Assembly: GCA_963971305.1 (NCBI GenBank)
Contig: OZ020308.1
Coordinates: 37,911,275-37,975,274, forward strand
DNA from: Arcuatula senhousia
Taxonomy: Eukaryota; Mollusca; Bivalvia; Mytilida; Mytilidae
Reading direction: 5' to 3'
Length of the DNA stretch: 64,000 bases
The stretch's first letter is position 1. Each line of letters opens with the position of its first letter. Both the position numbers and the translations under genes were made by a program. The notes below the pieces were generated by a model that saw only the letters and a list, made by a program, of their open reading frames with translations, searched no databases and was not told the DNA's origin. Of the stretch, positions 68 through 35,479 are shown piece by piece.

Positions 68-3000
68 GTAATGAAAGAAGCAAAGATACACAAAACATAA
101 AAAACAAAAAATCAACCAAATAGAAATCAACAACGCGAACTCAAGTCATAATGAGAGTGAGCTCAGGTGCTCTGGAAGAGTAAGCAGTTCCAGCTTGCTA
201 TAACACACATTGTAACATACCATTAGCGTTCTTAATAATTGAAGGTAAGATTAACAATACGGCGTTTTAACCAAGGAAACAAAATATTCAGGTCAGTAAA
301 CAGACCCCCATACACAGGATTTTGCAAGGGGGTGCAAATTTTATTGGCAAGGTGTCTGAGACCAGGGTCTGAGATAGCATATGTCATACCAAGTGTCAAC
401 TTTTCTAGTCAGAGTTGAATTAAACATGGAGCTTGATATACTTGTTGGTTTTCAAAGGGGATGGAACCAATTGATTCTTAGCAATTATTAATGTATTGAT
501 TCCCAAGGGTATAATAGTGGCTAGAACTGATTTCTAAACAGTTTCATTTCAAGATTTTTTTAATCTATCAAGCCTAGGACATGAATGAGTGGATAATAAT
601 TATTAAAGGTGGTTGAATTTGTTGATGAAAATGGAGTGGACAAAATTTGGACAAGATATGATTTATAAGTGCTAAATTTGGCCCCCTAATTTACCATTTT
701 TTTTAAATGATTGAACTAAGGTTGAATTATTCTAGATCAGTTCTTAGATAAACAAGGTATAGTAAAATAACATTAATTTTAACTAAATCTTGTTTATTAC
801 GTCACAGTGACGTCATCAAATTATGTGAAAAAGAAATTTTTGTGAATAAGTGTTAAAATCATGCAAATTTTGAGTAGTTTTTCGTAAATTTTACTATGAG
901 CCACACCGAGTACCACAAAGATATTTTTGTGGTTTGTTGCTATATTGAAAATGATTATCTACATAAATTATTGTAGTGGTACTCTGTGTTGCTCATAGTT
1001 AAATTTGCTGAAAACCACATCAAAATCGCAGGTTTTTTGCAGTTTTTCATCAAATCACGATTTTAAAGCCACTTTGGATAACTATTTTAACATCATAATG
1101 GATCAATTTAAACAAAATAATGCTGATATAGTAAAGTTAAACTAATTTAAAGTATACATCATATACTTTTAGCTCATTTTAATAATTTCAAAATTTGGGG
1201 GCAAAATTGGGCTCTTATCATATCTTGTCCTTTAACAATTGTGAAGGCTGCCATGCATAGCAGCATTTTCTACATTCTGTTTAATGTGAAGTGCTTATAA
1301 ATGCACCAATTACTGTAGCATTTTATGTATTTATCAATTAGAAGACCCAGCCCAGCCAAACCAACAAGAGAACAGACAAAAGAAGCCATGTCATTACCAG
1401 ATTCATTTGATTGGAGGAATGTTAAGGGCATGAACTTTGTTTCACCAGTCAGAAATCAGTGTAAGTTCTGTACATTGCTTGGAGAAAAGTTTTGTTTTGT
1501 GTCTTTTTCACCAAATCATGTTGATGAAACAATTTTTAACCCCTTGGTGGCTCAAATGAAAGAAATACATCATATATATGAAGATGTGTGTAAAGAAATT
1601 TCATTGCACTCTTATATCATTCAGACGAGATAATTTAAAAAACATAGGGTGTCTGATAAAGGTTAATCAAGAAAAGCGCTTCACACGCAATGAATTTTTG
1701 CTGTTGTACACTTATCAAAATCATTTCAATATGTGGATGGTTTTTTTCTGGCACATATTCCATATTCCTTCGTTTTTAATAGAAGTTTATAATGTTGCCT
1801 GCAATGTGTTGCAGAAGCGACATTTAGGGGTTACTTTGGAACCATCCGTTGTCCTGTGGCGTCACAAAAATTTCCGTCACAGTTTTCCAGGCAACTACAT
1901 GCCACATGTTTTAAGACGCAGGCGACATATGCCTTCCAAGACTGCCAGTCTAGTTTTGAAACTTGTCTTTACCCAGGGCGATTACAGGAGGAGGGGCCCA
2001 TCCCATTTTGTCAGAAATGGTTGGACATACATGTATAGGAAATTGTTGAAGCACGGCCAGTGGGCCAATTGGCCTCTACTTAGCCAGTCAGTTGGCCTCC
2101 CTTTTTTAAATGACCAGATCTGCCACAGTGACTGTTTAGTTCTTTTGTCTATTATTAGCCGAGTTGCAACGAAGTTGAACTCGGCTATTGTGATGATGAT
2201 GGCGGGCGGCTGGGCTGGCGGCTGGGCGGGCGGGTGGGCGTCAACAATTGGTTTCCGGACCATAACTCAAAAAGTTGTGAACCGATTTTAATGAAACTTT
2301 GGGATATTGTTACATATTATAAGAGGAGGAACCCTATTGATTTTGGGGTAAATCCGTTCAAGGTTAAGGTCACAGCAACAGAAAATCCTTAGAAAATTTC
2401 TTGAATAAGTGGTTTCCAGACCATAACTCAAAAAGTTTTCAACTGATTTTAATGAAACTTTGTAATGTTGTTACCAATTATAAGAGGAGAAATCCTAATG
2501 ATTTTGGGGTAATTTTGTTTAAGGATTAAGGGCAGAACGGCAGAAAAACATGGTTTCAGGACAATTACTCGAAAAGTTCTCAATAAATTTTATTAAAGTT
2601 TTGGCATAATGTTGCAAGCTACATTGTATATGGACGGTTGAATTCACAAAATTTTTCATGCGTGATTGGAAGGGGTTTTTAAAAATGAAGACAAGGAGAG
2701 TTTTGGTTAATAAAATACGGCAACTCGGCTTTTGCACCCATGTGCATATTGATTTTTTTATCTTTTGTACATTACAAACTGACTCATAATTTAACTTTAT
2801 ACACAATTAATGAATTATAAAATAATTGATTAAAATTCCATAATTAAATTCATCTTTATTCTTATACATTGTAGTGTCCTGTGGTAGTTGCTATGCATTT
2901 GGGTCATTAGCTATGAATGAAGCAAGATGGAGAATCATGACCAATGGCACCATGACTCCCGTTTTTTCTACCCAAGATATTGTAGAATGTAGTGAATACT

Positions 3001-6000
3001 CACAAGGTATATTATATCTGTAGCCTTATTTCAGTGCATTAAAATGTTAAATAGCATCCAGCAGTTTCAGAGCTTTTTGGTATGACATCTCTTAAATTAA
3101 CATGGAGAGCATGTGTCAATAAAAGGTATTTTGTGAGATATTTCCAAATAGGATCTTTTGCTTTGAAATTTTAGCTTCACATTTCTTATGAAGTATATCA
3201 CATTTGAACCAGGTGGCATCACATTTTTATACGACCGCAAAAAATTATGCGATCGTATTATGTTATGGCGATGTCGTTGTCGTTGTCGTTGTCGTCGTCT
3301 GTAGACATTTGGTTTCCGTGCGATAACTTGAGTAAATATTGACCAATTGTTATGAAATTTTGATACGATGTTTGTTACCACTAAAGGAGGGTTGGTCTTG
3401 TATTTTGGGTTTGTGGTCCCTACCATTTTAGAAAAAAGGGCTAAAATGGGCTAAAACGGGTGTATTGACAAAACTGTTGTAAAATGTTTATTATTCATTT
3501 GATTTTGAAAATTCTTATTTTTTTATTAAACTCCTCATTAAATTCTGTCAACTAAATGTGTCAATGGTTTTAATATATATTGCACCCTTACATTGCTACA
3601 GGGGGTCAAAAAGGGGCCACACCCCAAAAATCGACTTTTTTATTTGTGGTCCGATTTTGAAAATCTTTTTTTCATTGGAATCCTTGTGAAAATCACTGCC
3701 TGTGATTTTCATTCAGATTTGCAATATATCTAACCATTTTCGAGAAATCAGGGGTCGAAGGGGCAAAAAACGCCATTTTTATTTAAAGTTTGTCCAGGTA
3801 AATAAATTTAGCTGTAGTGGACCAGCCAATTGTTATGAAGATTTAATATGATGGTTATATCCACTCAAGGAAGGTTGGTACTGTATTTGGGGTTTGTTGT
3901 CCCTACCGTTTATAAAAAAGGGCCAAAAGGGGCTAAAACGGGTGCATGACAAAACTCTTGTAGAATGTTTGAAAACTCTTTTTTGTTGAATTGCTCATTG
4001 AATTCTGTCACCTAAATGTGTTCATGGTTTGAAAATATATTGCACCTTTACATTGCAGAGGGGGCCAAAGACATGCAACACATATAATATCAACTTTTTA
4101 TTTTTGGTCCGATTTTCAAAATCTCTTTTTCATTGAAATCCATGTGAAAATTCCACCCCGTATTTTTCAATCAGATATGCAATCATTTTTACTTTTTTTT
4201 TTGAAAAAATAGGGGTTGAAGGGTTGAAAAGAACCAAACATGTCAATTAATATATAAGACTTTTTATTAGATGTTGATGTAAATATATATGTGTCAAATA
4301 TGCATTTTAAAGTCAACCACAGGGTGCATGTGTCAAAAAGCTTTAAAAGTCCACCATGGGCTGCATGTGACCAAAGCAATAGATGATCCATATTGGGCTT
4401 CCAACGTACAGGGTTCAACATGTTGCGGTCGTATCATGCTGCGCTCGGCGTAGCTTTTTTTATTAGGATGCTAAAAGGACATGGTGAGAACACTGTTTTA
4501 TGGAATAAGAGTTAGTAACAAAACCCACATAAATTAATTGCACTTTAAAATTGACAATGGCTAGCAGCCTTCAATAAAATAAGTGTTCACAGCTCTTTGT
4601 TTTGCTATGCACCAGGTCCTAGATTAAAAATTCAATGCATATGATACAAAACATATCAAAGGGCCTAGGTGGTCGACTGGTCTAAGGCGCTGGTTAAAAT
4701 ACCACACTATTGGTCACTTACCAATTACCACTTGTCTACAAAAAATGAAGTGTTCCCACCTGTATGTAATTAGATTTGTCAGTTACCTGTCCCCTCGGGT
4801 ACTCTGGTTTCCTTCACCAATAAGACTGACCGCCCTACATGGCCAAGGTGTGTTGAAAGGGAGTTAAACATCAACACACACATGCAAAACAAACAATATA
4901 AATTAAAAACTATTAAAAAAAAAACCCTATCAAACATAAGCTTTAATTGTAAAAGATTCTTGACTTAGGAATGAAGCAATTTAGTGAGGGAATTCCAAAG
5001 AGAAAAGGAATATAAATTTGAAATAACATGTACTGTCTTATAATTAAAAAAAAATAGAATGAAACAAAATTTGCAATAAACCCCAATTAATTAAAAAAAG
5101 TTTTTTAAGGCCCAATCTATGAAAGTAGGGGAATATACAATATTCAGGTCTGTCTGTCCGTCATTTCCTTCATTCCTCCTTCAGTCCCAAATGTTGAAAG
5201 ATTTTGTCTTTTGGACAAATTTGTGTTCAGTTTAAGATTTTATGAAAGTTGATTGAAATATTAGCATGATCATGATGATGAAATTAGTTGCATCTCCATA
5301 GCACACTAATGTAGTTCATATTTTTATAACTGACAACTGGTTATAGTGTCCAACGACCTGGATATCCTTTGTGCTTTCACTTAAGTTTACAACACAAAAG
5401 TTGGCAGCAATTACAATTTCTTATTTTGTAAAAAGGAAGGAAAATATGTATGCATGACACAAAACTACATGTATGGCAAATATTAAAATAGAGCAATGGA
5501 ACAGCGGATTTATTGCTGTTCTTCGCGATCATGATAAAGTCATAGAGAGAGGCATTCAATGTGAATGCTAGAATCTCATACATATTTAAACCACCATTTC
5601 CAAGTACATTTCTTGCACATCATATCATTATCTATTAAATTCTCTTTATCTGTTCTTTTCCCATAGGATGTGAAGGTGGATTCCCCTATCTTATAGGAGG
5701 TAAATATTCAGAAGACTTTGGCTTGGTAGAAGAATCATGCAACCCTTACACAGGGAAAGATGGAACGTGTAAAACTGATAAGACTTGTATGAGACATTAT
5801 TCAACAAAATATAAATATATTGGAGGATTCTATGGAGCGTAAGTTATTTATCAGTTAGAAGTATGTCATACTTTAATTAATTTTGAAAAAGTAGATCTCT
5901 AATAAATCTAAAAACCTAAAGCTTGTAGGTAATTTGATTAAACAGAAAATAACAATTACAGAATAGGCCCATAGCCAGATACTTCTGAAAAGGGGTGTGG

Positions 6001-6800
6001 TTAACAGATCATGAGAAGGTGTTAGGAATAAAAGAAACTTTAACCAGAGGTGAAAATTATATTGATTTAAAAAATTCCTATGAGTGTCTAACATTTTTTT
6101 TTTAAATGGGGACATGATCATACCCTTTGCACTGCACTGGATTTCCATTTCTTACAGCAGGGGTATCACATGTGAGCATAAGCTCACAGATTCACTTGTT
6201 TTAGATTTACATACATTGTATGTTAAAAGGTCACCTCTTTTAAATACACTTTGAATACATAGTGCGCAAGAATTTTTTTGCACAGGTACCAATTTCTATG
6301 TTTATTTGGGGTCAGGAAAACCATGAAATTTAAATTCCCATAAATAAATAAATCTTGCATTTATTTTTATGATTAATTTGTTATAATTACAACCAATCCT
6401 TAAAATTAATGTAATAATTTATCCACAAAAACTGATACATTTGTACCACCAATAGTTAATGTTTTCTTTTTTCAGATGCAATGAAGAACTGATGAAAATC
6501 AACCTACACAAGAATGGTCCAATGGCTGTATCTTTTGAAGTTTACGATGACTTTTTCCATTACAAATCAGGGGTATACAAACACACAGGCCTTAAAAACA
6601 GTTACAATCCATTTGAAATTACAAACCATGCTGTACTGCTTGTGGGCTATGGCGTTGATAGCATGTCTGGGGAAAAGTTTTGGACCATCAAAAACAGCTG
6701 GGGGACGTCCTGGGGAGAAGATGGGTTCTTTAGGATTTTGAGAGGGGCTGATGAATGTGCCATTGAAAGTATTGCCGTCCAGTCATTTCCAATTCTTTGA
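1..6800 (+). CDS. CTSC: Cathepsin C / dipeptidyl peptidase 1, C-terminal five exons
   Basis: Lysosomal papain-family (C1A) exopeptidase that removes dipeptides from protein N-termini and activates other proteases. Five exons join in frame: 1-67 (cut by the window edge), 1342-1460, 2875-3006, 5667-5838 and 6476-6800, giving about 270 C-terminal residues plus a TGA stop. The family has about 460 residues, so the signal peptide and exclusion domain lie upstream, outside the window. Visible landmarks are SFDWRN and FVSPVRNQ at the start of the mature heavy chain, CGSCYAF with the catalytic Cys at 2889-2891, [11 protein letters not shown] with the catalytic His at 6627-6629, KNSWG with the catalytic Asn at 6693-6695, and DECAIES near the C-terminus. 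Cys-to-His is 147 codons and His-to-Asn 22 codons, the same spacing as in the human enzyme. The YNPFE stretch just before the His matches the light-chain start of the family. The gene appears intact and functional. The introns carry several mobile elements. Confidence 0.96.
649..1230. mobile_element. Foldback MITE in first CTSC intron
   Basis: Starts with GGACAAGATATGAT at 649 and ends with its reverse complement (ATCATATCTTGTCC with one base change) at 1230. Inner inverted segments also pair: ACTATGAGCCACACCGAGTA near 892 with TACTCTGTGTTGCTCATAGT near 982. Most of the ~580 bases could fold into one long hairpin. It has no ORF, as expected for a non-autonomous DNA element. The flanking target duplication is unclear. 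Confidence 0.7.
1342..1460 (+). CDS. CTSC: CTSC exon with heavy-chain start
   Basis: The acceptor is ATTAG ending at 1341 and the donor is GTAAGT at 1461. It encodes the end of the propeptide and the start of the mature heavy chain ([12 protein letters not shown] then NFVSPVRNQ). A longer open reading from 1325 to 1633 is only intron read-through. Confidence 0.93.
1648..1790 (+). repeat. Dispersed repeat X, copy 1
   Basis: Shares GGTTAATC-AGAAAAGCGCTTC and ATATGTGGAT, TTTCTGGCACATATTCCATA with copies at 46500-46640 (minus) and 48166-48310 (plus). This copy is the most diverged of the three. The function and the type of parent element are unknown. Confidence 0.75.
1845..1935 (+). repeat. Dispersed repeat W, copy 1
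   Basis: CTGTGGCGTCACAAAA, then GTCACAGTTTTCCAG and an ACATG box, resemble 62477-62530 (CTGTGGCGTCGCAAC, then GTCACAGTTTTCCAG). It is a short shared segment with no coding signal, lying in the second CTSC intron. Confidence 0.5.
2157..2735 (+). mobile_element. Hairpin-headed element, family I
   Basis: The 5' hairpin is AGCCGAGTTGC (2157-2167) paired with AACTCGGCT (2178-2186). A GAT/GGCGGGC-rich linker follows. Three diverged units then begin at the shared GGTTTC-GGACCATAACTC motif at 2249, 2411 and 2551 (periods 162 and 140). The 3' end has GCAACTCGGCT at 2720-2730, an exact reverse complement of the 5' terminus, followed by T's. It has no coding capacity. It lies in the CTSC intron. Confidence 0.75.
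2875..3006 (+). CDS. CTSC: CTSC exon with catalytic cysteine
   Basis: The acceptor is TTGTAG ending at 2874 and the donor is GTATAT at 3007. The exon encodes [18 protein letters not shown] and ends at CSEYSQ. The catalytic Cys codon is 2889-2891. The codon split across the junction with the previous exon is TTG (Leu), where human has Ala. Confidence 0.95.
3229..4459 (+). mobile_element. Hairpin-headed element, family E
   Basis: The head is ATACGACCGCAA (3229-3240) with TGCGATCGTAT closing the hairpin at 3248-3258, followed by a GTCGTT trinucleotide run. TTGCGGTCGTAT at 4423-4434 is an exact reverse complement of the head. A small GCTGCGC/GCGTAGC hairpin and a T-run follow. Two ~485-base internal repeats share the 'TGTGGTCCCTACC' and 'GGTCCGATTTT' blocks. 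There is no real ORF. It lies in the third CTSC intron. Confidence 0.78.
4661..4885 (+). mobile_element. tRNA-derived SINE
   Basis: Begins with a tRNA-Leu-like head GGTGGTCGACTGGTCTAAGG with a box A shape. Its 3' half has the block common in molluscan SINEs: CCTTCACCAATAAGACTGAC, then GTGTTGAAAGGGAGTTAAAC, then a CA-rich tail. No good box B is left, so it is an old degenerate copy rather than a tRNA gene. Confidence 0.65.
4886..5666. other. Rest of third CTSC intron
   Basis: AT-rich intron sequence without a convincing coding, RNA or terminal-repeat signal. A short GTCTGTCTGTCCGTC run near 5150 resembles the linkers of the hairpin-headed elements and may be a remnant. The last 20 bases form the pyrimidine-rich acceptor tract. 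Confidence 0.5.
5667..5838 (+). CDS. CTSC: CTSC exon, heavy-chain middle part
   Basis: The acceptor is CCATAG ending at 5666 and the donor is GTAAGT at 5839. It encodes [20 protein letters not shown] and ends with YIGGFYGA, the conserved Cys-rich heart of the DPP1 heavy chain. Confidence 0.95.
6476..6800 (+). CDS. CTSC: CTSC terminal exon with catalytic His and Asn
   Basis: The acceptor is TTTTTCAG ending at 6475 and the stop is TGA at 6798-6800. It encodes [20 protein letters not shown] through [27 protein letters not shown] and [10 protein letters not shown]. It holds the heavy/light chain junction and two of the three catalytic residues. Confidence 0.96.
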
Positions 6801-6960
6801 ATTGATAAATTGATGATAATGTGATTAATGTGCTATGTAAATTGTCATTCCAAAACAAAATTCTCATGTTTTTTATTGCCATTTTGTTATTTCTAAAAAG
6901 TGCTAAGCATTTTGTATCAAATTATATATATATATAAATGTATTATTTTCATTGAATTTT

Positions 6961-6966
6961 AATAAA
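6961..6966 (+). promoter_or_regulatory. Poly(A) signal of CTSC
   Basis: AATAAA lies 160 bases after the CTSC stop, following an AT microsatellite-like stretch. It is the first canonical hexamer downstream, so it is the likely 3' end signal. Confidence 0.7.
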
Positions 6967-7129
6967 AATGCTCAATTTGATTTGTATCTGTCAAGATATG
7001 CCAGGGTATTTAGACTAAATTTTTATTCAAAAATCCTGGATTTATGAGGTAACAAACTTTATTCTTCTGAAAATCCCTCTCCAGTTTGAAGATTATGAAT
7101 GTTACATTTTTAGCTGAACGCCTTTAAGC

Positions 7130-7426
7130 CTACTCTTATCAATCACTACAAAGGGGTAGAAGGTAGAAGAGTAATTATAAGGCTTAGGAATTGCTGATTA
7201 TGATGACCAAAATCTTGAGATTTTCAGCAAAATTTTATACAAATTCTCTTGAAATCAAACATTAGATACTTTGTTATTATTTCTGAAAAAGTTATGCCAA
7301 ATATTATGGTTTTGGAAGAACTAATATAAACATCTATGGAATTCATAATTAACAAGTATTGTGTTAACATAGTTGGTGTTTATTCATTTACAATAACTGT
7401 TTCACACTATTCTAAATCTACTTTTT
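7130..7426 (+). repeat. Direct repeat pair Y, copy 1
   Basis: The stretch from ACATTAGATACTTTGT through CATCTATGGAATTCATAA to ACATAGTTGGTGTTTAT matches 61510-61650 at roughly 80% by eye. It sits just downstream of the CTSC 3' end, 54 kb from the second copy. The origin is unknown. Confidence 0.65.
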
Positions 7427-8196: not shown

Positions 8197-9115
8197 ATTT
8201 GTTCGCGAGCCCAACTGAGTTGGGGAGGGGATATAGCGTTTTGTTCGTTGGTTCTTAAGTACGATCTTAATGGTTTTTGTTTTGTCAATAACTATTGAAC
8301 AAAACTTCATGGAAGGATGATATTTGGTCAGTAGGTACATCTTTGATGGAAGTCAGCATCAGTATCAAAATGAGTCACATTGACCTACATTTTCCGCATG
8401 AATGACACAGGTTAAATTTAAGGTCCATGTATCAGCAACTGCAAGTGAAAGAGAGATTATATTGGCCCAGAAGTTACATCTTATATCTTACCCAGTATCC
8501 ATACAAAAATATTGTTAGCTTTATCTTCATTTTCCGCGTGAATGACTCGGGTTTTAAGTTTTGCTTAAGGTCCATATCTCAACAACTGCGAATGATAGTG
8601 AAAGATGTTGGATCAGTGGGTACATCTTGGAAAGTAACCAGCATCCTTACCAAAATGAAGTTACCTTGACCTACATTTTGCGCATAAAAGACGGGTTAGA
8701 ATTTTAGTGAATGTCCACATCTCAGCAACTGCAAGTGATAGAGATGATTTTTGAGTCATTTGGTACATCTTGGATAGTAACCAGCATCCGTAATAAAATA
8801 AAGTCACCTTGACCTACTTTTTTCAGATGAATGACGCAGGTTAAAGTTTTGGTTAAGTTCCACATTACAAAAGATTATATTGGGTCAGTAGGTACATCTT
8901 GGAAAGTAATAAGCAGTTATACCAAAATAAGGTCAACTTGACCTACATTTTCTTCACTAATGACTCGGGTTAATATTTTGGTTAAAGGTGCATATCGCGG
9001 CACTCCAATTGATGAAGGAATGATATTCTGAAACTGGGTAAATATTGGAAAGTAATTTTAACATCTGTTCAAGATTTAGGTCCATTTGACATTTTACTGT
9101 TACGGGCGAGGGGGT
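8197..9115 (+). mobile_element. Element with ~143-bp tandem units
   Basis: GAGCCCAACTGAGTTGGGGA (8209-8228) forms a head hairpin. Downstream the motif TTGACCTACATTTTC-GC-TGAATGAC-C-GGTTA recurs at about 8381, 8524, 8667, 8810 and 8939, a period of 129-143. Each unit contains CATCTCAGCAACTGCAAGTG and GGTACATCTTGGAAAGTAA variants. The apparent ORFs are by-products of the repeat. Confidence 0.65.
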
Positions 9116-9291: not shown

Positions 9292-9336
9292 AAGTGGTGC
9301 CGACAGGCGAGACAAACTCTTAATGACCACACTTGT
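9292..9336 (+). repeat. 3' tail of family C element
   Basis: GTGCCGACAGGCGAGACAAA, then CTTGTTT, matches the 3' end of the complete C element at 24275-24318 (GTGCCAGCAGGCGAGACATA). Only the tail is recognisable. Confidence 0.6.
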
Positions 9337-9339
9337 TTA

Positions 9340-12308: not shown

Positions 12309-12779
12309 ATTTGTATTTCTCCCATTCCTGGTAAATAAGAAAAAAAAATTGTTTTACTATTTAAACAAGACAATTTTGTTACACCTTACCGACCGCGGGG
12401 TAATACATACATGTACATCAAAGGCAGTCCGGATTATTCATTTACATTATAAATAAACTTTTTTATATTTTATGTATGAAACTTTGGCCGACGAACTATG
12501 AATCAACTAGACGTGGCTTAAACAGCTTGATGAAAATAGTGCGTATTCGATTTTCCAAACGACATAAGACTTTTGACAACAGGAACTACAAAAAATGTAA
12601 CGTTCACAGGACTCTTCATTTTTACGGATGAACGTCTGAAGCAAAATTTGTTGATTATATTTAAGGGAAAAAACTGATCGCGTGAATGTAGCTTAGTTTT
12701 CATACAATTTTGGTCATTCATTTCCATTTTATCATAAACAGATTCTGTCATCTGAATGTATCAATACCTTCGATGTATG

Positions 12780-13268
12780 CTGCACTGTTGCAAGGCAATA
12801 GTGGGTTAAAGTGAGGTTGTTTCCAAATATCAAGTTTTAAAATTGTTATCCGATTTCAACAACCTTTCTTATTACAATTCTTATAAAAATCCATTCCTGT
12901 ATTTTTCAATCAGATTTGTTATATCTCTTTCGGTTTTCAAGGAATTTTGGTCAAAAGGGAACCAAAACCATAAAAACGTCAAATGATATAACATATATGA
13001 ATACACGTAATAATAATGCATAAATATGTTTTGTCAAAATTGGATCTGTAGTCAGGAACTAACCAAAAAAATTGAATGTTGAATGTTGAACGTTGAATAT
13101 TGAACCAACTTGACGCTGGTCTAAAGTCCACACCGCAAATGCATGTGTTAATAAGCCTTGCAAGTCCAACATGGACTACGAGTATCTAAATCAGTTGACT
13201 TTCTTTATACTCTCCGATATACAGGGTTCAACTTGTTGCGGTCGTATTATGCTGTGCTCTGCGTAGTT
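12780..13268 (+). mobile_element. Family E, 5'-truncated copy
   Basis: Shares TATTTTTCAATCAGAT and the terminal block GGGTTCAAC-TGTTGCGGTCG, TATTATGCTGTGCTCTGCGT with the full E element at 3229-4459. The 5' hairpin is missing. Its T-rich tail is immediately followed by a B-type head at 13272. Confidence 0.7.
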
Positions 13269-13271
13269 TTT

Positions 13272-13475
13272 ATACCCGGCCACACCAAGTGGCGGGTTAT
13301 TATTCGTTTAGTGTCTGTCCGTCCGTCCGTTCGCCGAAGGTTTCCAGATGATAACTTGAAGACGCGTCAAGGGATTTGAATGATATTTTGCACTGCTTTT
13401 GATTACAATACAAGAGAGATTGAGTTCAATTTTCAGTATGTTACTAAAACAATATCCGAATTACATGTAGAAAAT
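13272..13475 (+). mobile_element. Family B head, 3'-truncated copy
   Basis: ATACCCGGCCAC (13272-13283) pairs with GTGGCGGGTTAT (13290-13301) in a hairpin. A GTCCGTCCGTCCGTTCG linker follows, then GATAACTTGAAGACGCGTCA and GATATTTTGCAC as in the B element at 31093. The 3' part is absent. Confidence 0.72.
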
Positions 13476-13604: not shown

Positions 13605-13930
13605 TATATCACTAGTAAAGCCATTTGGGTTTTGATTGGCCATTTTGGCATTAACCCGATTTGAAAAAGATTTAAAAATATTGAATTGAATTGATTTAGA
13701 TTGCCCTCTCTATTTCAATTCATTTCAATCTAAATCAAACTCTTTGTGATCTAAATCAATGCATTTTGGGACATGCGCCTTGCAGTCAATCAATCTAAAT
13801 CAATCTCACTGACAGCCCCGTCAAACTACTATGGTTAAACCCGGTCAATCTATTTCAAACCTCGTTAATCCAAAACCCTAGCAGTCAATCAATCCAAATC
13901 AATCCATAGGCAATACCATTTAAACTAACA
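13605..13930 (+). repeat. 326-bp inverted repeat, left arm
   Basis: Matches 24991-25316 in reverse complement over its full length with only scattered differences. The outer end is TATATCACTAGTAAAG and the inner end is CCATTTAAACTAACA. It is full of ATCAATCTAAATCAATC-like motifs. The arms are equal in length and lie 11.06 kb apart. They could be terminal inverted repeats of one large element or two separate insertions of a short element. Confidence 0.85.
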
Positions 13931-19900: not shown

Positions 19901-22045
19901 TATCCTCGTAGCATTGAGATGAAATATTGTGCACCATCAATATTGCCGAGAAAACTGTGATGAGTATTTTTGTTACGGACAGACAGACAAACATACGGTG
20001 TCTTTGATTTAAAGCATATGAAGAATAGTTGGTACCCCCGACGAGCGTTTTAAATGGAACCGACTTGCGTGTTGCTCGGAGTGACCTCTTCCCATGCTAA
20101 ATTATAAAATTTATAAACCGAAGTTTGTGCTCATGAGTCACTGAAATTCTGTGAATGAAGATAAGGGGTCATTTTCAATTTTTTTGTCCCTGTATAAAAT
20201 AAAGAAATAAATCCGCTCTAAAAAAATAGAAAATGCATGAATAGAGTCAAATTTACAGAAAAAAAATAATTGGCCGTTAGCCTTAATTTGTTATACTTTC
20301 GTTTTTTTTTTTTCAAATATATTTTTTAATTTAAATTTATAGAACTACTATTTAGTAAGAAACCAAAGAGGTGGACTATATTCATTAGAGAAAGTTATAT
20401 ATGTAAAGGAGTTTAAAAATACTTTTTTTTTTTAATAAAACCTTTTTTTCATCTGAAAAAAAACTAAAACTGTCTCAGCTTAAAAATGGTCTAATCTGTA
20501 ATCGTAGTTGTTTATTTGTTGTTTATTCGATGCTATTTGAATTTCCATGCATGACTTGTCGATCCCGATCCCAGCAGGATGTACCGGCGGCATATCAAAG
20601 GATGTTAATTAAAATCTCTATAATTCTAAAGCAGATTGAAATATTTTTACAAAAAAATTCAAAATATATTAGTTCTAACGTTCTGAAACCATTTACATAG
20701 TTTTCAATGCCATAAAACAAAAGCATCATGTCCTTGGTGCACATTTTGGGTCCTTAGTGCACTAAGAAGTCCTGTGTGGTGTTTAGACGTACCCGACCCG
20801 AATAACACAATCGATATTTTTTCTTCCTATAGGGTCGCTACTATTCCGCTGAAGTATACAAAGAAAAGAGCTTGAATTATTCGAGCTTAGATGGACCCGT
20901 TTCCTTCTGTGTTGTCTTTGGTACATGTATGTTTGCATCCCATTTTAAAACGGCAACACTTAACTTTTCGATGCTTGAACATGAATGTAACTTAAAAATA
21001 TAGTAGATCTTCGAAGTTAATTACACTATACAAGGACAAGAACCGACAGACATGACAAATTAAGAAAAAAACCTTCTGATTTTCTTTCATTATAATAAAC
21101 TAATACGTAAATTGGGAAACTAATTTTAAAACAGGTTCAAATTGGTGTAATTTATTATATAGCAAGACTTTTGAACGAAACCGGTTAAGTTAATAACAAT
21201 TTAAAACTGGACCAAAGCACCAGAGCAAGCATGTCTTTTGAATATATAGCTTTTATAAAACTTGAAAAAAAATATAGCCGACAAATGCGTGGCATTCAGT
21301 TTTAATGTCTTATTGAAAATGACTGTAAGTCCTCTGTTTTAATTATATTAAGAAAGATCAAGATAATGAAAGAAAGTTCATTGAAATAAATGTCGGAAGC
21401 CTCACATAAATATAGATTTTAATATGATGACAAACAATATTATCGTATTTTCGTTTCAGCAAACATTCTTGAATTTTATATAAAGTTTCTATCGTGTTTT
21501 AAAGATGAGAACCGTATCATTTAATGATGCTTAAAATATAAAAGACCAACAGAAAACTGTATTCAAAAGTTATAAAAGTAATATATTTTTTTGAAAATTT
21601 ATTTCCCTGTGACACATGTAACACGAACACTATGGTCGTAAGGCGTTTCCGAACATAATAAAAATTCTTGGGAGTATATATGTTGTCTAAAAAGTTACGC
21701 ACTCTTTAATGGCCTAAAAAGTGACACCCCTTTTTCGAAAACTTATTTCACAAATAAACTATACCCGTCTGAATTTATTAGTGCGAGTGCTTTCCATTGT
21801 AAGTGCGAATATGCACGAGTATCTTAGACTTGTTGCCATGTGACCCAAAATAACTCTTTGTGTTTTTTAACTTATCACATATAGAAAAAGACGGAAAAAT
21901 TTTCCAAAGCAACTTTATACATCGAGGTTATACAGAATGTGATGGAAAATCTTAATCCAAAAAGAAACACAAATGTTAAAAACACTTATTGATTTCAGAT
22001 ACCAATGGCTAGTGCGATCGCAATATAGTTATCTTATATATATAT
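13931..22045. other. Long AT-rich stretch without recognisable genes
   Basis: Eight kilobases inside the 326-bp inverted pair. The longest ORF (18563-18913, 116 codons) is Phe/Lys/Leu-rich with no recognisable domain and no start context, as expected by chance at this base composition. GACAGACAGACAAAC near 19979 and GTCCGTCAACG near 15931 resemble linkers of hairpin-headed elements. No transposase, polymerase, integrase or capsid-like product was seen. Confidence 0.5.
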
Positions 22046-22049
22046 ATAT

Positions 22050-22260
22050 TAGCTCGCCCAAGCAACGATCATTTGAGCTATTGCCGGCATTACTTGGAGT
22101 TTGTGAGCTTCCGTCCGTCCGTTCAACTTTTCAAAAATCTCCGCTGAAACCGTTATGCAAAGCTTTTGTGATCTGTAACTTAAAATGTTTAGAAAATACA
22201 GCTTTCATATCTTGCTCAGTGGTTATATGTCAATTTCGATACGTTTAATTTAAAAACAAC
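22050..22260 (+). mobile_element. Hairpin-headed element remnant, family F
   Basis: After a TA microsatellite, AGCTC (22051-22055) and GAGCT (22075-22079) close a hairpin. ATTGCCGGCATTACTTGGAG and a TCCGTCCGTCCGTTC linker follow, then CAACTTTTCAAAAATCTCCG. This is the same order as family A (29588). The 3' end is not visible. Confidence 0.5.
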
Positions 22261-23562: not shown

Positions 23563-24318
23563 TGTCTCGCCTGCGAAGCAGAGCGGGACATAGGTGTTAC
23601 TTTACCGGCGGCGGCGACGGCGACGGCGGCAGCGGCGACGGCGGCGTTAACTTTTTGGAAAAGTTTTATGAGCACCTCCATATCTCAAGAACTATAGGTC
23701 CTGGGTTGATGAAACTTGGTATGCATATGCCCCAGTAGTACCTTAGCACAGTTGCATCCCCATCTTTTGACCTTGACCTTGATTTTCCGGTTGAATGACT
23801 TTGACAATTTTCAATACATTTAATAGCAATGGAAAAGTTTTGTGAGCACCTTCATATCTCAAGAACTATAGGTCCTAGGTTGATGAAACTTGGTATGCAT
23901 ATGCCCCAGTAGTAGCTTACCACAGTTGCATCCCCATCTTTTGACCTTGACCTTGATTTTTCGGTTGAGTGACTTTGACAATTTTCAATACATATAATAG
24001 CAATGGAAAAGTTTTGCGAGCACCTCCATATCTCAAGAACTATAGGTCCTAGGTTAATAAAACTTGGTATACATATGCCCCAGTAGTACCTTAGCACAGT
24101 TGCATCCCCATCTTTTGACCTTGACCTTGATTTTCCGGTTGAGTGACTTTGATTATTTTTATTGCATATATTTGCAATGTTTAAGTTCTATAAACATGTT
24201 TTGATCTCAGAAACTGAAAATCCATGTAAATTCAAAATATAGTGGAAGTAAGAAAGAATAATTGTTTCTGATGGTGCCAGCAGGCGAGACATACTTTAGT
24301 GTTAACTCTTGTTTTTAT
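23563..24318 (+). mobile_element. Hairpin-headed element, family C, three 174-bp units
   Basis: The head is TGTCTCGCCTGC (23563-23574) with the imperfect partner GCAGAGCGGGACA (23578-23590), then a GGC/GAC trinucleotide linker. Three near-identical 174-bp units start at 23659, 23833 and 24007; each has CATATCTCAAGAACTATAGG and TTGACCTTGACCTTGATTTT. The tail has GCAGGCGAGACA at 24280-24291, an exact reverse complement of the head, and ends CTCTTGTTTT. The 81-codon reverse ORF exists only because 174 is divisible by three. Confidence 0.85.
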
Positions 24319-24990: not shown

Positions 24991-25316
24991 TGTTAGTTTA
25001 AATGGTATTACCTATGGATTGATTTGGATTGATTGACTGCTAGGGTTTTGGATTAACGAGGTTTGAAATAGATTGACCGGGTTTAACCATAGTAGTTTGA
25101 CGGGGCTGTCAGTGAGATTGATTTAGATTGATTGACTGCAAGGCGCATGTCCCAAAATGCATTGATTTAGATCACAAAGAGTTTGATTTAGATTGAAATG
25201 AATTGAAATAGAGAGGGCAATCTAAATCAATTCAATTCAATTTTTAAAAATCTTTTTCAAATCGGATTAATGCCAAAATGGCCAATCAAAACCCAAATGA
25301 CTTTACTAGTGATATA
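24991..25316 (-). repeat. 326-bp inverted repeat, right arm
   Basis: Near-identical reverse complement of 13605-13930, with the same two ends. ATAT follows the CTAGTG end at 25312-25315, and ATAT also precedes CACTAG at 13606-13609. This could be a 4-bp target duplication, but ATAT is its own complement and weak evidence. Confidence 0.85.
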
Positions 25317-27479: not shown

Positions 27480-28055
27480 AATAGGTCAAAAATAGTTCAC
27501 ATTCTTGCCCTTTTACCATTATATTATAATTATATGTGATAGTACAAATCCTTTGGTACTTTAAGTGGCCATGGATGGGATCATGACCCACCTATACTTA
27601 ATATTCTGAAAACCATTGAAATCCCTGCCCTATAACCATATATATTATTACTCTTTATGAATCATTTGGTACCATATTGGGGGCTTGAGGGGTCATTCCC
27701 CATCCCCTAAAATGCTAAAATGCAAAATGTTCTGAAAACCATTGAGATTCCCATTCTATAACCTGTATTGTAGTACTAATTATGATAAGACGAACCATGT
27801 GGTACCATACATGTAGGTGGGTTTAAGGGGGTCTTGCCCCAACCTCCAAATGATGAAATACTATAAATTCTGAAAACCAATTAGATCTACACCCTATTAC
27901 CATATATATTATTACTTCTTATGATAAGACGAATAATTTTGTACCATACGGGGGTCCGAAAGGGGGGTCATGCCACACTCCTTGAATGACAAAATGTTTT
28001 ATCGTGGCGGGGTAGCATTTAATGTCCTATTAGATGCCCTATTATTTATATAATG
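27480..28055 (+). mobile_element. Family B-related 3' part with ~130-bp units
   Basis: TTCTGAAAACCATTGA motifs recur at 27604, 27730 and 27868 (periods 126 and 138), with TTTGGTACCATA and GGGGTCATGCC blocks in each unit. The end, ATCGTGGCGGGGTAGCATTT and AATGTCC, matches the 3' end of B at 35462-35483. The 5' head is missing. Confidence 0.65.
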
Positions 28056-29587
28056 TAGAACTATCATGCAGACATTTTATTGAAAAAATAAATTACAAAT
28101 ATGTTTTTTTGTCAAGTAATGATCTTACAATATTTTGAGAAGATTGGAGATAAACTAAATAGTTCATTTATCAAAACATAAATTATCGTGATCAACCTTT
28201 GTAATACAAAGTTCAGATTATTAGCTGACAAAGTTGACAGAAGAACGGTTTGAATCAAGAACGTTGAAGCCCATGCATGAACCTACCTTCAATTGAAGAT
28301 CAAAAAGGAACCTTACCAGGTATGATACTACTTTATTCCTCTTTCCTTTTGCATACTTTGAACTAAATTTAATATCTAGATCTTTCTCAATAAGATGTTA
28401 AGTGTATAAATTTTCAAATCCAAGAAAACGAGGCATGCAAATCAAAATTATCAAAAATATGTGTCGAGTAATCCAATGCAGAAGCTGTTTATTCCATGAA
28501 AGTTAAGTAAAACATCTCAAATTTTAATTTGCTAAAAAACTGGTGAACACCTAGCTGCTGCCAAGTGGTTTGCACAAGCAATTTCAACGACTTGGTGTTT
28601 ATTGCTAAACATTGGCGATATTGCTATGTAAATATTTGTTCTCAGGAAATTTATTTTCCAGGGGAACTATTAAGGAACAAATAAAGGTTCTGAATTCTGA
28701 ATGGAAATTTGGCTGTTTGTCTTTATTGTTTTCCTCCCATTTTAAATAAAAACCTATGAAACTGATTACTTAAAGAAGACATAAATAAACATAACTCAAA
28801 TCATGTGCATAAAATTTCGCAATTTAACTTATATTATTGCCTCAGTGTATCGGGTTTTAGTCTGGACATAATATAGAGCTTTTCTAATTTTAAAGCAACA
28901 GATATTACAATTGTGTATAAAAATCTCTTCATCACACCGTTTCCATATAAGAGCATAGAATGATTATATTCACTAAAACTATCATTTCTTCTATAATGGC
29001 AATATAAAGTCAGGACCATCGAGATTTTTGCTTTCGGTATGTCTTCCTAGTTTTATCTTATTTTCTTGGACGTTTGAGATATATCCTCCACGATCGGTAG
29101 TGTTACTTTTATTGGACTCATTTATATGACTTTGAAATTTCTGACTGTTTCATTCAACCACGTCAAAGATAAAACCATATAATCAATCGCTTAATAGATA
29201 CATATGTATACCTGTAGGCAAAGGATGATTAATAATAATATCATATGTCTATAGTTTATCTTAATTTTGATTGGTCCAGGGTACATGAAAAGTATAAAGC
29301 AGAAAGTAGTAGTTATTGACTGATAATACGTTTTGACAATTTAGTCGCTAAAAATAGATACCTATCACTCGTGAGTCATTAAAATAAAGTCTTGACTGTG
29401 ACGCCATTGCTCTTATGAACTCAATTTACCAAGAAAAGGTCTAATATGTACTTGTATTACAATTTTGAATGATTTCACTCTCAGATATTTCATCATATTC
29501 ATGTTCAAGCTGAAAACGGTTTCTAGAAAAAAAATGATGATTTATATCTGTTTTTCAATACTTATACGTAAATGGGTTTCGTTTTTT
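28056..29587. other. Intergenic stretch, nothing recognised
   Basis: AT-rich, with no ORF above 75 codons, no inverted termini and no RNA gene seen. Confidence 0.5.
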
Positions 29588-31088
29588 GCTCACCTGACCG
29601 AAGGGTCAGGTGAGCTATTGCCGTCACTTGGCGTCCGTCGTCCGTCCGTCCGTCCATCGCCCAACTTTTCAAAAATCTGAAACCGCATGGCCAAATGTAA
29701 GTAAACTTGGTAGGGTTGTTCTATAGTATGTCCTTTACAAAACAATCGTTCGGATTTTTGATTGGATGAACAACATGGCCGCTGTGTCTAAGAATAGAAC
29801 ATAGGGGTGAATTGCAGTTTTTTTGCAAATAACTCAAAAACAGTAACAAATATCAAAATTCAGCAAGGTAAAAGTGATCAGTACCTCAAGATCTATCTAC
29901 CCAGAAATTTTCAAGAAGATCCAACAACCGATGTAGGAGTTATTGCCCTTTTTCTGGATTTTTTCAAAATTTTGCACTTATTTAGCCCAATATATTGAAA
30001 ACTATACAAGATATTTTAAAAATTCAAATTGCATATATTTCATGTCATAGGTCATAGCTATAGAACCATTTCTTTTAGGAGTTATGGCCCTTAAAGCATC
30101 AAAATTTACAATTTTTCATTACTGTTCCCCTGAATTTCAAAGATTAACTTGTCTGACACCTAACATCAAACTTCAACCAAACTTGACACAGTTGTTAAAT
30201 AGCATAAATGCTCCAATACTATTGTTCGGATTTTTGATTCCTAAAATAATATGGCCGCTTTGGCTAAAAATAGAACATAGGTGTAAATTGCAGTTTTTTG
30301 CTAATAACTCAAAAATGATTACAGATATCAAAATTCTGATGGGAATCAAAAGTGATCACCATCTCATGATCTACCTGCTTTGAAAGTTTCAAGAAGATCC
30401 AACAATTGATGTAGGAGTTATTGCCCTTTTTCTGGATTTTTTTTTTTAATTTTTCACTTGTTTAGCTATATTTCTTGAACATTATACACGATATATTTCA
30501 AATATTTAAATTGCATATGATTAGGCACATCAAGATCTACATTTCATGTATTTAGGTCAAAACTGAAGGACCATTTCTTTTAGGTGTAATTGTCCTAAAA
30601 TTTACCATTTTTCATTACCTTTTCCCTGAATTTCAAAGATTAATTTGTCTGACACCGTAAGACCAACTGCATTTTACCTTGACACACTTGTTTTAATAGC
30701 ATATATGCTACAACTCTATTGTTCAGATTTTTGATTGGTCTAATAACATGGTCGCCATGGCTAGAAATAGAACATAGGGATAAATTTATTTGTTTTGCTA
30801 ATAACTCAAAAATGGTTTCAGATATCAAAATTGTGCAAGAATCAAAAGTGATCAGCATATTTAGATCTACATGTCCTGAAATTTCGGAAAAGATCTGACT
30901 TCTGATGTGAGGTTATTGCCCTTTTTCGTAATTTTTGCCAAATTTTGCACTTATTAAGCCCAATAGCTCGAAAACTAACCAATATATTTCAGTAATTTAA
31001 ATCGCATATGGTTAAGCACAATTAAATCTACAAAATATATGTATCTGTGTAGTTCAGGTGAGCGATTCAGGCTCCTGGGAGCCTCTTG
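29588..31088 (+). mobile_element. Hairpin-headed element, family A, complete
   Basis: The head is a perfect 12-bp stem, GCTCACCTGACC (29588-29599) with GGTCAGGTGAGC (29604-29615), followed by a CCGTCCGTCCGTCC linker. The body contains three to four diverged ~300-base blocks, each with AATAACTCAAAAA, AAAAGTGATCA, ATCTAC and GTTATTGCCCTTTTTC. TCAGGTGAGC at 31054-31063 is an exact complement of the head. A terminal hairpin GGCTCCTGGGAGCC (31070-31083) and CTTG complete the element. It is non-coding. The next element (B) starts four bases later. Confidence 0.85.
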
Positions 31089-32482
31089 TTTTATACCCCG
31101 CCACACGAAGTGGCGAGTTATTATGTTATACCCTCAGTTTCTTTCGGTGTCTGTCTGTCTGTCCCTCCGTCCGTCCGTCCGTCCCCGAAAGTTTCCGACC
31201 AATAACTTGAAAACGCGTCAAGGGAATTCAATGATATTTTGCACAGCTGTTTAGTACAATACAATACAGGTCAAGTTCGATTTCCAGCATGATCTGAAAA
31301 ATACTTTTTTGAGATTGTCCACTTTGAAATATCAAATTTAATGATTTTTTTAGTTTCCAACTGATAACTTGAAAACGCTTCAAGGGAATTCAGTAATAGT
31401 TATTACATGAGGACGCGGTGTGTCAGTAAAAGATCACCCCGACGGCCGAAGGCCGTAGGGGGTGATCTTACTGACACACCAAGTCCGAATGTAAAAACTA
31501 TTTTACATCCCAGCCTTTAAAATATATCATGTTAAATTTAAATACAAACATTAGACTACATTTTGTGCATTTAGTATCCTTATTGGGCCCCTTCAATATT
31601 CTTCATGTACAATTTTTTAGCGGAGATTTTCCATCGGTTTCGTGGTCTGGTGGATATTAAGGTAGACTTGGAACAGTGTTTCCCGGTGGAAACTATGTTA
31701 TTTTTCAATCTTCCAAAAAACTCTGTTGTTGATTTTATAATTTTCCTATGTTAAACTTAGTGAACATTTCTCAAAAAACGTGTTTGAAAAACAAAAGAAA
31801 AGGAACAATAGAGTTGAAAAGGTAGAATAGGGTATTCCGAGAGATGATCCGGCTCAGATCACCCCTGTCAGAACAAAGGAGCAGGGATGTAAATGATATT
31901 TCCCACAGCTGTTTAGTACAATAACATACAGGTCAAGTTTAATTTCCAGCATGATCTGAAAAATACTTTTTTGAGATTGGCTTTCCGACTAGTTTCCGAC
32001 TTATAACTTAACAAGAGGCCCCCAGGAGCCTCAGTCGCTCACCTGACATATGTGCCTGAAAAGTTATTAGGCAAAATCTTTTTCACATTGAAATGGTCAT
32101 AAGTTAAATAAGTGGTCATCTGACAATATGGTTTAACTGAATGTAGTTATGATTGTACAGAGTAATATTCTTTTAATATTTTTCTTTCCTTCAACATTCT
32201 ACGAGGAATAACCTCTAAAATGAACAGTATTACAATCTTGATCTTATTTCATATTTTATAGATCATGATGTGCAACAATATGCAATATGCAATTAATATT
32301 TCTTAGATATCTCATACAGATTTTAAGATATTGAGCTTGAAACATTTTTGTAAGTGCAAAATTCATAAAAAAATAAAATAAAAGGGCAATAACTTTTTTC
32401 ATGGGTTGTTAGATCATCTTCAAAATTTCAGAGCTGGTGGATCTTAAGGTGCTGATCAATTTTGTTCTCATTCAAAATTTAA

Positions 32483-33665
32483 CAAGAACAATCGATGTCT
32501 GGCCCTGCGTCGCACGGCAAAACGTTGAACCCTGTACGTTCTAGGCCCAATATGGACAGTCAAAATATTTTGACACTTGCATCCTATGGTGGACTTACAA
32601 AGCATATTTGTCACATGCCACCCAATATTGTAAAAATAGACACAAAAAATAGTTTCTATTTTTTCCCCTTTTGTTCCCTTTATTGCTAAACAGAAAAGGT
32701 GGGTCAAGAAAAAAATTGTATCCTCCATTTTGTATCCAATATATGACCAAAATTAACTTGTAAAAAAAAAGTTCCTAAACCAGACCATAAATAAAAAATG
32801 TCACATTTTTGCCCCTTTTGGGTCCTTTGTTCCTAAACAAAAAGAGAGGGGACACCCAAAATCATCCCACCCTTTAATTTATGGTGAGTAACACTACTGT
32901 AAAGTTTCATAGCATCTGGTCAACCAAAACAAGTTATTGTGGAAACAAATTAAAAAGTTGCTTTTTGGCCCCTTTAGGGCCCTACGTTTCTAAACGAAAA
33001 AAGAAGGGACACCCAAAATCAGCCCAACCCTTCCTTTTATGGTAAGTAACATTACTGTAAAGTTTCATAGCATTTGGTCAACCAGAACAAAAGTTATTGT
33101 GGAAAAAATTAAAGTCGCTTTTTTGGCCCCCTTTGGGCCTCTAATTTCTAAACGAAAAAAGAGGGGACAACCAAAATCAGCCCAACCCTTTCTTTTATGG
33201 TAAGTAACATTACAGTAAAGTTTCTTAGCATTTGGTCAACCAGAACAAAAGTTATTGTGGAAACAAATAAAAAAGTCGCTTTTTTGGCCCCCTTTGGGCC
33301 TCTAATTTCTAAACGAAAAAAGAGGGGACACCCAAAATCAGCCAAACCCTTCCTTTTAACTGTAAAGTTTCATAGCATTTGGTCAACCAGAACAAAAGTT
33401 ATTGTGAAAAAAAAATTAAAAAGTCGTTTTTTCGGCCAGTTTTGGGCCCCTAATTTCTAAACGAAATTATAAAATGACCCCAAAAGGAGAGGTGCACATC
33501 TTCAATATATCTGTAATCACTGTGTAAAATTTCAGAAAGATCTAGTGTTTGGTTTTTGAGATTCAGATTACACAAGACAGGCCCCATAGCGGGACGGACG
33601 GACAGACGGACGGACGGACGGAGTGACCTGACTACTAGACCTGCTTTCGCCTTCGGCGACGCAGG
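32483..33665 (-). mobile_element. Hairpin-headed element, family D, inserted in A
   Basis: The head on the minus strand is the complement of GCGACGCAGG (33656-33665), with hairpin partner CCTGCTTTCGC at 33640-33650 and a (GACG)n-rich linker at 33595-33622. CCTGCGTCGC at 32504-32513 is the exact complement of the head end. Five units carry GGCCCC-TTTGGGCC and TTTCTAAACGAAAAAAG at 32811, 32967, 33125, 33286 and 33434 (periods 148-161). The terminal block GTTGAACCCTGTACGTT is shared with family E, so D and E are relatives. Confidence 0.82.
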
Positions 33666-34455
33666 TAAAAATCTGTCACCCTGTTTGAGTTATTAGCAGT
33701 TTACCCCAATGTTCTATTTTCAGCCAACGCGGCCATGTTTTTCAACCAATCAAAAATTCCCACAGCTGTTCTACACACCTAATGCTTGTTAACAACAATA
33801 CCAAGTTTGGTTCCAATTGGACTTAAAGTGTAAGAAGAGTTAACGTTTTCAATGTAATGAGGAAATGCTGTGAAATAGCTTAATTTTGACGTTCTAAGGG
33901 CAATAATTCTTAAAAGGAAAGGTCATACAACGTTGACCCTACTGCATATTTTATAGATCTGGATGTGCTTAACAATATGCAATTTAAATTTCTCAAATAT
34001 CTTTTACAGTTTTTAAGATATTTAGCTTAATATGTGCAAAATTAACAACAACAACAAAAATCACAAAAAGGGCAATAACTCCTAAAAGGTTGTTGGATAT
34101 TCTAACAAAAATTCAGAGCTGGTACATCTTGAGGTGCTGATCACTTTTGTTTTCAATCAAAGGTTTTAAATCTTTCACCGTTTTTTAGTTATTTACAAAA
34201 AAACTGCGACTTCCCCCTATGTTCTATTTTTAGCCACAGCAGCAATGTTTTACAACCAATCAAAAATCCACACATCAGTTTTATACATTTAATGCTAATA
34301 AACAATTATACTAAGTTTGGTTGCAATTTGACTTAAAGTGTTTTGAATGTAATGAGAAAATGCTGCTCAATTATGACGTTCTAAGGGCAATAACTCCTTA
34401 AAGGAAAGGTCCTACAACGTTGACCCTATTACATATTTTGTAGATCTTGGTGTGC

Positions 34456-34866
34456 TTAAGGTTCCTTTAAATGAAAAATGGCTGCCAAACTTAAAAAAAA
34501 TACACAGATTCAGCAAATGATGAATTTTGTTCAAAACCTGTCTAATTAGATTTAACTTACCAATATCCAGAGCAAGCTAGTATATAAAATCCCACAATGA
34601 GTCTTAATTCAATTTTATTTACATAAACAAGTTAGGTGCGTCTGATAACTATCCTACTGTTCGAGCGTACCCTTATAAATATTTAATATTTTACCTTCAA
34701 AGACAGTTTTTATATGTTATTATTTCTAGCTTGCTTTAGATAAGATTGTAAAGCATTCATTTCAATATAATTTTAGCAAAATACTTTTTTCATCTAGGCT
34801 GTTTATTTTTTTAAATATTTGTATTGAAAATGCATGGCAGCCATTTTTCATTTAGAAGAACCTTAA
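34456..34866. mobile_element. TTAA-flanked MITE inside family A
   Basis: TTAA then GGTTCCTTTAAATGAAAAAT, GGCTGCCA at 34456-34487 is mirrored by TGGCAGCC, ATTTTTCATTTAGAAGAACC then TTAA at 34835-34866. The TTAA duplication and ~27-bp inverted ends fit a piggyBac-type non-autonomous element. Another family A copy gives a matching empty site (GTGCTTAACAA). Confidence 0.82.
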
Positions 34867-35479
34867 AAACAAGCAAATTTTAATTTCTCAAATATCTTCT
34901 TTTGTTTTCAAGATATTGAGCTAAACAGGTGCAAAATTTGCAAAAAAAATCCACAAAAAGGGCAATAACTCCTACATGGATTGTTGGATTTCCTTCAAAA
35001 TTTCAGGGTAGGTAGATCTTGAGGTGTTGTTCGCTTTAGTTCTGCCAAAATGTTGATATCTGTAGCCTTTTTGAGTTATTTGCAAAAAACTGCATTTTAC
35101 CCCATGTTCTATTGTTAGCCACATGTACAGCGGCCATGTTTTACGACTGAAAATCCCCACATCAGTTCTAAGCACCGAATGCTAATAAACAACCATACAA
35201 AGTTTGATTGCAATTGGACTTATGGTGTCAGAGGAGTTAACGTTTTAAAAGGTTTACGGACGAAGCCAAATGATGACAATAGCTCACATGACCCTTCGGG
35301 TCAGGTGACCTTAAAACCCGTCAAGGGATTAAAATGATCATTTGCACAGCTATTTAGTACAATAAAATTCAGGTCGAGTTTAATTTCCAGCATGATCTGA
35401 AAAACAGTTTTTGAGATTGGCAACTTTGAAGAATCAAATTTTACGAACTATTGATATAATTTCGTGGCGGGGTATCATT

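Follow-up and report, generated by a model that had tools for sequence, protein, structure and literature searches.

The window analysed here, a stretch of 64,000 nucleotides of the Arcuatula senhousia contig OZ020308.1 (assembly GCA_963971305.1, positions 37,911,275 to 37,975,274), carries six families of elements, designated I, E, C, A, B and D, that share one design of their ends. We put the probability at roughly 0.8 that these are non-autonomous elements with Helentron/Helitron2-type (HINE/DINE-1-like) ends and that a sequence triplet found in them is a putative pairing switch for the start and stop of a Rep enzyme. The triplet consists of a 5' arm (a), its nearby complement (local a') and a further complement near the 3' end of the element (far a'). 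This reading is based on the match between a and far a', which is exact and private to each family, on the nearby complement of a, and on the position of far a' before a clear hairpin in three of the six families. The observation, first made in a preliminary description of the window, is correct; the end design and the idea of a switch are already in print, and the families belong to a known kind.

All six a/far a' pairs named in the preliminary description were confirmed letter for letter, with exact matches of 11/11 nt in I, 12/12 in E, 12/12 in C, 10/10 in A, 12/12 in B and 10/10 in D. For assignment to the HINEs, we used subterminal inverted repeats (subTIRs) of 8-15 bp, of which the 3' copy is located about 20-60 bp inside the end. 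Such 5' and 3' repeats were found in 6/6 families: the pairs comprise 10-12 exact base pairs, and far a' is located 23-36 nt from the presumed 3' end, several of the 3' ends having been placed by inspection (those of I, C, B and D). Meanwhile, the canonical Helitron ends, 5'-TC and CTRR-3', are not present, as the elements begin at the hairpin and finish in T-runs.

The chance level of this arrangement was estimated by a hairpin scan of both strands. Since an unfiltered k-mer scan was swamped by AT-rich matches, the scan was restricted to GC-rich hairpins whose local arm has at most two ungapped mismatches and which have an exact a' 250-6000 nt downstream. It returned six rows, namely I, E, A, B and two cross-matches between the two copies of A (A1 and A2); C and D were absent because their bulged local arms count as three and four ungapped mismatches. 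As a control, 40 first-order Markov shuffles in 2-kb blocks were scanned, which gave a mean of 0.6 rows and a maximum of 3 (reached twice). The real count is above that of every shuffle, but by a modest margin, as the true pairs number four and the shuffles yielded up to three rows. The mirrored arrangements (a' upstream, a downstream and a upstream) gave 5, 3 and 3 rows, several of which are cross-matches of the A copies. Among GC-matched k-mers of the window, 0.02-0.76% have an exact complement in an equal downstream range (8/16,393 for I, 27/40,808 for E, 2/10,030 for C, 86/26,094 for A, 71/9,395 for B and 24/3,820 for D), these counts taking in the real pairs and the nested elements. We conclude that the six a/far a' pairs exceed chance by a modest margin.

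The sequence of a had been described as different in every family. The comparison of the first 17 nt, taken from just before each element start, with each 3' region agrees with this, as a matches its own 3' region over 10-12 nt and the 3' regions of the other five families over 3-6 nt. It had also been stated that the far copy is exact while the local copy is sometimes imperfect. For the six named elements this holds: every far copy is exact, and the local a' is perfect in A1 alone, being flawed by a bulge in I, one mismatch in E, a G-T pair and a bulge in C and a 1x2 internal loop in D, and reduced to the inner six pairs in B. It does not extend to the second copy of A, whose far pair has one mismatch, and the contrast is partly a selection effect because an exact far copy was the criterion for choosing the cases.

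In total, seven two-ended elements (I, E1, C, A1, B1, D and A2) and five partial ones were found in the window. Family I (2157..2756, plus strand) begins with a 5' hairpin at 2157-2186 having a C-GAA-G tip; its far a' (2720-2730) is followed by a 3' hairpin (2733-2746) and a TTTT end at about 2756, placed by inspection. The first copy of family E (E1; 3229..4458, plus strand) has a 5' hairpin with an A-rich loop (3229-3258), a far a' at 4423-4434 and a 3' hairpin at 4438-4454, followed by a T-run. Family C (23563..24315, plus strand, 3' end by inspection) has a 5' hairpin with a GCGAAGC tip (23563-23590), three repeats of about 174 nt (23656-24179) and a far a' at 24280-24291. A1 (29588..31092, plus strand) starts with a perfect 12-bp hairpin (29588-29615) and carries a far a' at 31054-31063, a 3' hairpin at 31069-31084 and the end CTTGTTTT. 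It is followed by the first copy of family B (B1; 31093..35511, plus strand), with a 5' hairpin at 31093-31121 and a far a' at 35464-35475; the 3' end of B1 was set by similarity to a fragment at 28004, and an insert F, A2 and D are nested within this element. A2 (32010..35310, minus strand) is located in B and has a 5' hairpin with a C-GAA-G tip (35310-35282), an a' at 32046-32037 with the one mismatch to its own a, a 3' hairpin and the end CTTGTT. Family D (32481..33666, minus strand) is located in A2 and has a 5' hairpin with a C-GAA-G tip (33666-33639), inner repeats at 32789-33466 and an a' at 32513-32504.

The partial elements include the right part of a second E copy (E2; 12742..13271, plus strand), which has a far a' at 13236-13247 and a TTTTT end, and for which a 5' end was looked for and not found. 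The 5' hairpin of a second B copy (B2; 13272..13300, plus strand) abuts this T-run end. A right-end fragment of B (B3; 28004..28054, plus strand) consists of the a' GTGGCGGGGTA and a tail. A C-like right end (9295..9338, plus strand) is 79.5% identical to C over 44 nt and is preceded by an array of repeats of about 140 nt (8313-9056); a clear 5' end was looked for here as well and none was found. An A-like left end near 22040 (22040-22150) is 77% identical to A over 71 nt, its hairpin being no longer evident by eye. A2, E2 (13236), B2 (13272), B3 (28004) and the C-like end (about 9303) are additions to the preliminary description. The bodies of the elements are repetitive: a GTCC-like microsatellite follows the hairpin in A, B and D, and other short G+C-rich repeats are present in I, E and C, while the tandem repeat units have lengths of 174 nt (C), 158 nt (D), about 160 nt (I and B) and about 480 nt (A and E).

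To compare the two partners of the 5' arm, folding was performed with DNA parameters, using the 5' end alone or a joined strand in which the 3' end is linked to the 5' end. A 5' hairpin was predicted in 6/6 families, that of B through its six inner pairs. The predicted energies of the local fold are -11.6 kcal/mol in I, -7.4 in E, -9.5 in C, -7.3 in B, -10.9 in D and -15.1 in A1, and clear 3' hairpins after far a' were predicted in I (-4.3 kcal/mol), E (-5.6) and A (-4.7). In the joined strand, a is predicted to be paired with the far copy at a mean probability of 0.56 in I, 0.98 in E, 0.99 in C, 0.95 in B and 0.94 in D, and of 0.00 in A1. A2, which has a decayed local arm, is predicted to pair at 0.88 with the far copy and at 0.02 with the local one, despite its far mismatch. 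The far partner is thus favoured in the joined state by 6/7 two-ended copies and by the named copies of 5/6 families, A1 being the exception. The view that the 5' arm has two competing partners agrees with these predictions and with the description of Helitron2 by Bao and Jurka (PMC3627910), which, like the other published work, is cited here from excerpts. The folding result fits their pairing model and does not prove it.

The six families had been described as unrelated. The comparison of the bodies of each family pair with 100 shuffles showed that D and E are related (z 12.1) and that I and B are weakly similar (z 3.8), while z ranges from -2.2 to 2.1 for the other 13 pairs; the original description is only partly right, given D and E. 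At the 5' ends, the similarity of I-B, I-A and A-D, out of 15 pairs, was reached in only 5-6/200 shuffles. The right flanks of D and E are 77% identical over 110 nt, in an alignment that extends seven bases into the a' of E and ends one base before the a' of D. Meanwhile, the alignment score of their hairpins was reached in 113/200 shuffles. As these hairpins are not alike beyond shuffles, D and E have different a and far a' sequences, each element being self-complementary. This single case is consistent both with a paired change and with an exchange of end modules.

The nested elements allow the borders to be examined. When the flanks of D in A2 are joined, they align to the empty site without gaps over 88 nt; the joined flanks of A2 in B recover the repeat with a difference of 1-2 A/T, depending on the border chosen. 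No target duplication was seen at these two readable nested sites, and most insertions are at T-rich sites, in agreement with T-rich insertion without target duplication. Family I has no direct T-run, and there is no empty site in the window for I, C and E1. The first base of B1 directly follows the CTTGTTTT end of A1, and that of B2 the TTTTT end of E2. Both B left ends that were found (13271/13272 and 31092/31093) abut the T-run 3' end of another HINE, which suggests that HINE ends are favoured landing sites.

A further common feature of the 5' hairpins is their tip. The window contains 33 CGAAG words on both strands. Ranked by the stability of the surrounding fold, the top seven sites are F, A1, I, D, A2, C and B1, i.e., six HINE hairpins and the palindrome of insert F. 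A strict C-GAA-G closure is present in F, I, D, A2 and C, while A1 has a 4-nt loop and B1 a 5-nt loop. By family, the CGAAG tip is found in I, C, A, B and D (5/6), and the strict triloop in I, C and D and in the A2 copy. Among the 34 C-NNN-G tips that passed the same filter, GAA occurs five times, its complement TTC also five times and each of the other listed triplets at most twice. Counting against a general role of this tip, E has no CGAAG, the tip of B2 reads CCAAG, and the DINE-1 subTIRs are printed without it, in excerpts that do not show the loops (PMC2374699). The same tip is printed for FoHeli1 and FoHeli2 of Fusarium (PMC5148889), and the GCGAAGC mini-hairpin is described as having a melting temperature of up to 78 C and nuclease resistance (PMC4686876). 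In the Helitron/Helentron text among the matches listed, figures and supplements not being covered, the GAA tip is not mentioned. The recurrence of the tip may partly be due to common descent, which is indistinguishable from selection in this sample.

Insert F (31402-31882), inside B, contains a near-perfect palindrome at about 31411-31480 with CGAAG at its centre, and a direct copy of the palindrome arm AGATCACCCC is located near its other end (31856). F was examined as a possible seventh family but rejected, as it has no far a' downstream and no HINE layout was seen.

According to the switch reading, the displaced single strand would first close locally by pairing of a with the near a', mostly with a CGAAG tip. 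This local fold would put the nick site beside a short stem and signal the 5' end to a rolling-circle Rep enzyme, supplied by an autonomous relative elsewhere in the genome. Unwinding of the 3' end, or joining of the two ends, would then allow the far a' to pair with a and open the 5' hairpin. The new pairing would rebuild a stem by the T-run nick site, where the enzyme could cleave and join the matching end, and would in this way mark where copying stops. A more tentative extension, to which we give clearly less than even odds, assigns distinct tasks to the parts of the hairpin: the C-GAA-G tip would be an ultra-stable closure, kept from molluscs to fungi amid drifting surroundings, that shuts the 5' end once it becomes single-stranded; the slightly flawed stem would let the exact far copy win later; and the stem would serve as a private barcode, both ends changing together, so that copying ends at the element's own end.

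Other explanations of the three copies were weighed against this switch. Transposases of cut-and-paste transposons generally bind inverted sites at the element ends, and the copies could be double-stranded sites for the DNA-binding domain of a family-specific transposase, their inversion reflecting protein geometry and involving no pairing of strands. One enzyme per family would explain the private sequences, and the 3' copy, which has no local partner, could be a simple site; however, a and a' of D and E have changed at each end, the right flank next to them being still 77% alike, and the CGAAG tip recurs on differing stems, which points to a folded strand. We consider such binding sites unlikely. 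Somewhat less likely still, in our estimate, is that far a' is a by-product of copying, derived from the local a' by strand switching or gene conversion, in which case its exactness would not reflect selected pairing. The far and local a' do read in one sense, and recent copying would fit the exactness seen in this small sample. In B, however, the far copies (B1 and B3) read GGTA and the local ones (B1 and B2) GTTA, so that the present local copy was not the template of the far one. In addition, the far a' is identical over all 12 nt in E1 and E2, although the identity of their right ends is 75% over 135 nt. Foldback elements, elements of the miniature inverted-repeat transposable element (MITE) type or chance inverted repeats in repeat-rich DNA would account for the mirrored arrangements (5, 3 and 3 rows), but the 3' copy has a subterminal position, neither of the two readable nested sites shows a target duplication, and the six rows of the hairpin scan, with their four true pairs, exceed each of the 40 shuffles. 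This explanation appears very improbable.

Several points weigh against the pairing switch itself. The perfect local hairpin of A1 is predicted to persist in the joined strand (far 0.00, local 0.99), and a thermodynamic switch is not universal for this reason; family I is near balance (0.56 far and 0.39 local). It should be noted that the folding leaves out proteins and the long loop of the linear strand. No clear 3' hairpin was predicted in B, C or D (-0.4 to -0.5 kcal/mol), the tail of E2 is weak (-1.1 kcal/mol), and the contrast between exact far and imperfect local copies is biased by the choice of cases. In the oyster Cg_HINE elements, subTIRs with one mismatch predominate in all but two element groups, according to the excerpted text (PMC7492417), and Helraiser, a canonical Helitron, is described as transposing without a strict need for its right end (PMC5876387). 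Finally, no Rep/helicase gene was recognised in the 64-kb window, from which ten reading frames were given to Pfam.

Relatives were also looked for outside the window. Rfam gave 0 matches at the gathering threshold, and pattern scans of viral and genome contig collections gave no recognisable relative among the matches listed. Of 187 pattern-matched contig loci that were screened, six rows passed a lax filter, none of them with a hairpin evident by eye. Two of the viral contig scans had no match at all, and the six loci matched in a further one contain the 17-nt palindrome but are without HINE flanks.

The window contains several other features. An exon-like frame at 6456-6797 matches the papain family (Peptidase_C1, E 5.8e-30) and, judged from this match, is a host cysteine protease gene, presumably a cathepsin-C-like one. 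The segments 13605-13930 and 24991-25316, 11 kb apart, form an inverted repeat pair of 326 nt that is 98% complementary; they are perhaps two copies of another mobile element. Further inverted repeat pairs, at 42444-44360 and 46507-48313, measure 247 nt (89%) and 57 and 77 nt (96% and 99%) and resemble other families of transposons. At 55406-56012, a 27-nt tandem repeat of 22.5 copies is located inside a 499-residue reading frame. This frame comes after a 419-residue one, for which 4/7 protein matches are from Mytilus, with 33-40% identity over part of the query, in line with a bivalve host.

Six families and their nested insertions within 64 kb offer compact natural material for examining the termination model of Helitron2, as they show private barcodes, a related pair (D and E) with different, internally matched barcodes and a recurring hairpin tip. 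If the tip and the pairing matter, Helentron end signals could be recognisable by structure where sequence searches fail.

The assignment to Helentron-type ends made in the preliminary description is upheld by the published architecture of Helitron2, DINE-1, Helentrons/HINEs and Cg_HINE. In Helitron2, the 5' asymmetrical terminal inverted repeat (ATIR) is located in a 5' hairpin and the 3' ATIR upstream of a 3' hairpin; Bao and Jurka proposed in 2013 that pairing of the 5' and 3' ATIRs destroys the 5' hairpin and sets the endpoint of replication, and they reported compensatory changes for two elements labelled CQu (PMC3627910). The switching role thus has the status of a proposal in this literature. 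DINE-1 has a 5' subTIR with an adjacent partial or interrupted inverted repeat, a 3' subTIR and a 3' stem-loop (PMC2374699), and comparable end anatomy is described for Helentrons and HINEs (PMC4067079) and for 11 oyster Cg_HINE elements (PMC7492417). For Helraiser, the 3' hairpin is reported to act as a terminator and the ends to be joined precisely (PMC5876387).

The elements of the window are like Helitron2 (PMC3627910) in having the 5' repeat at the end or at most 2 bp from it and folded in a hairpin, the 3' repeat about 20-30 bp from the end, and insertion after TTTT. They differ from it in that the 3' hairpin is unclear in 3/6 families, the far a' of B is 36 nt from the presumed end, and their bodies consist of satellite-like repeats, the likeness being one of ends and not of a Rep/helicase protein. 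With the oyster Cg_HINE elements (PMC7492417) they share a 5' subTIR of 11-12 bp, a nearby inverted repeat of 7-12 bp, a left-flank microsatellite (GTCY/GTCC in several), inner tandem repeats and a 3' subTIR, followed by a palindrome that is clear in 3/6 families here. This is a likeness by description and not by letters, and subTIRs with one mismatch predominate in the oyster outside two element groups, unlike here. The subTIR, the 3' stem-loop (in I, E and A) and T-rich insertion are also shared with the DINE-1/HINE elements of Drosophila and mites (PMC2374699, PMC4067079), as is the partial or interrupted inverted repeat beside the 5' subTIR with DINE-1 (PMC2374699). The start of B, ATACCC, resembles most printed DINE-1 subTIRs; the host, however, belongs to another phylum, and ATAC is present in B and E and not in the other four families. 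FoHeli1 and FoHeli2, with which the C-GAA-G tip is shared, are, unlike the elements described here, autonomous fungal elements of about 5-6 kb (PMC5148889).

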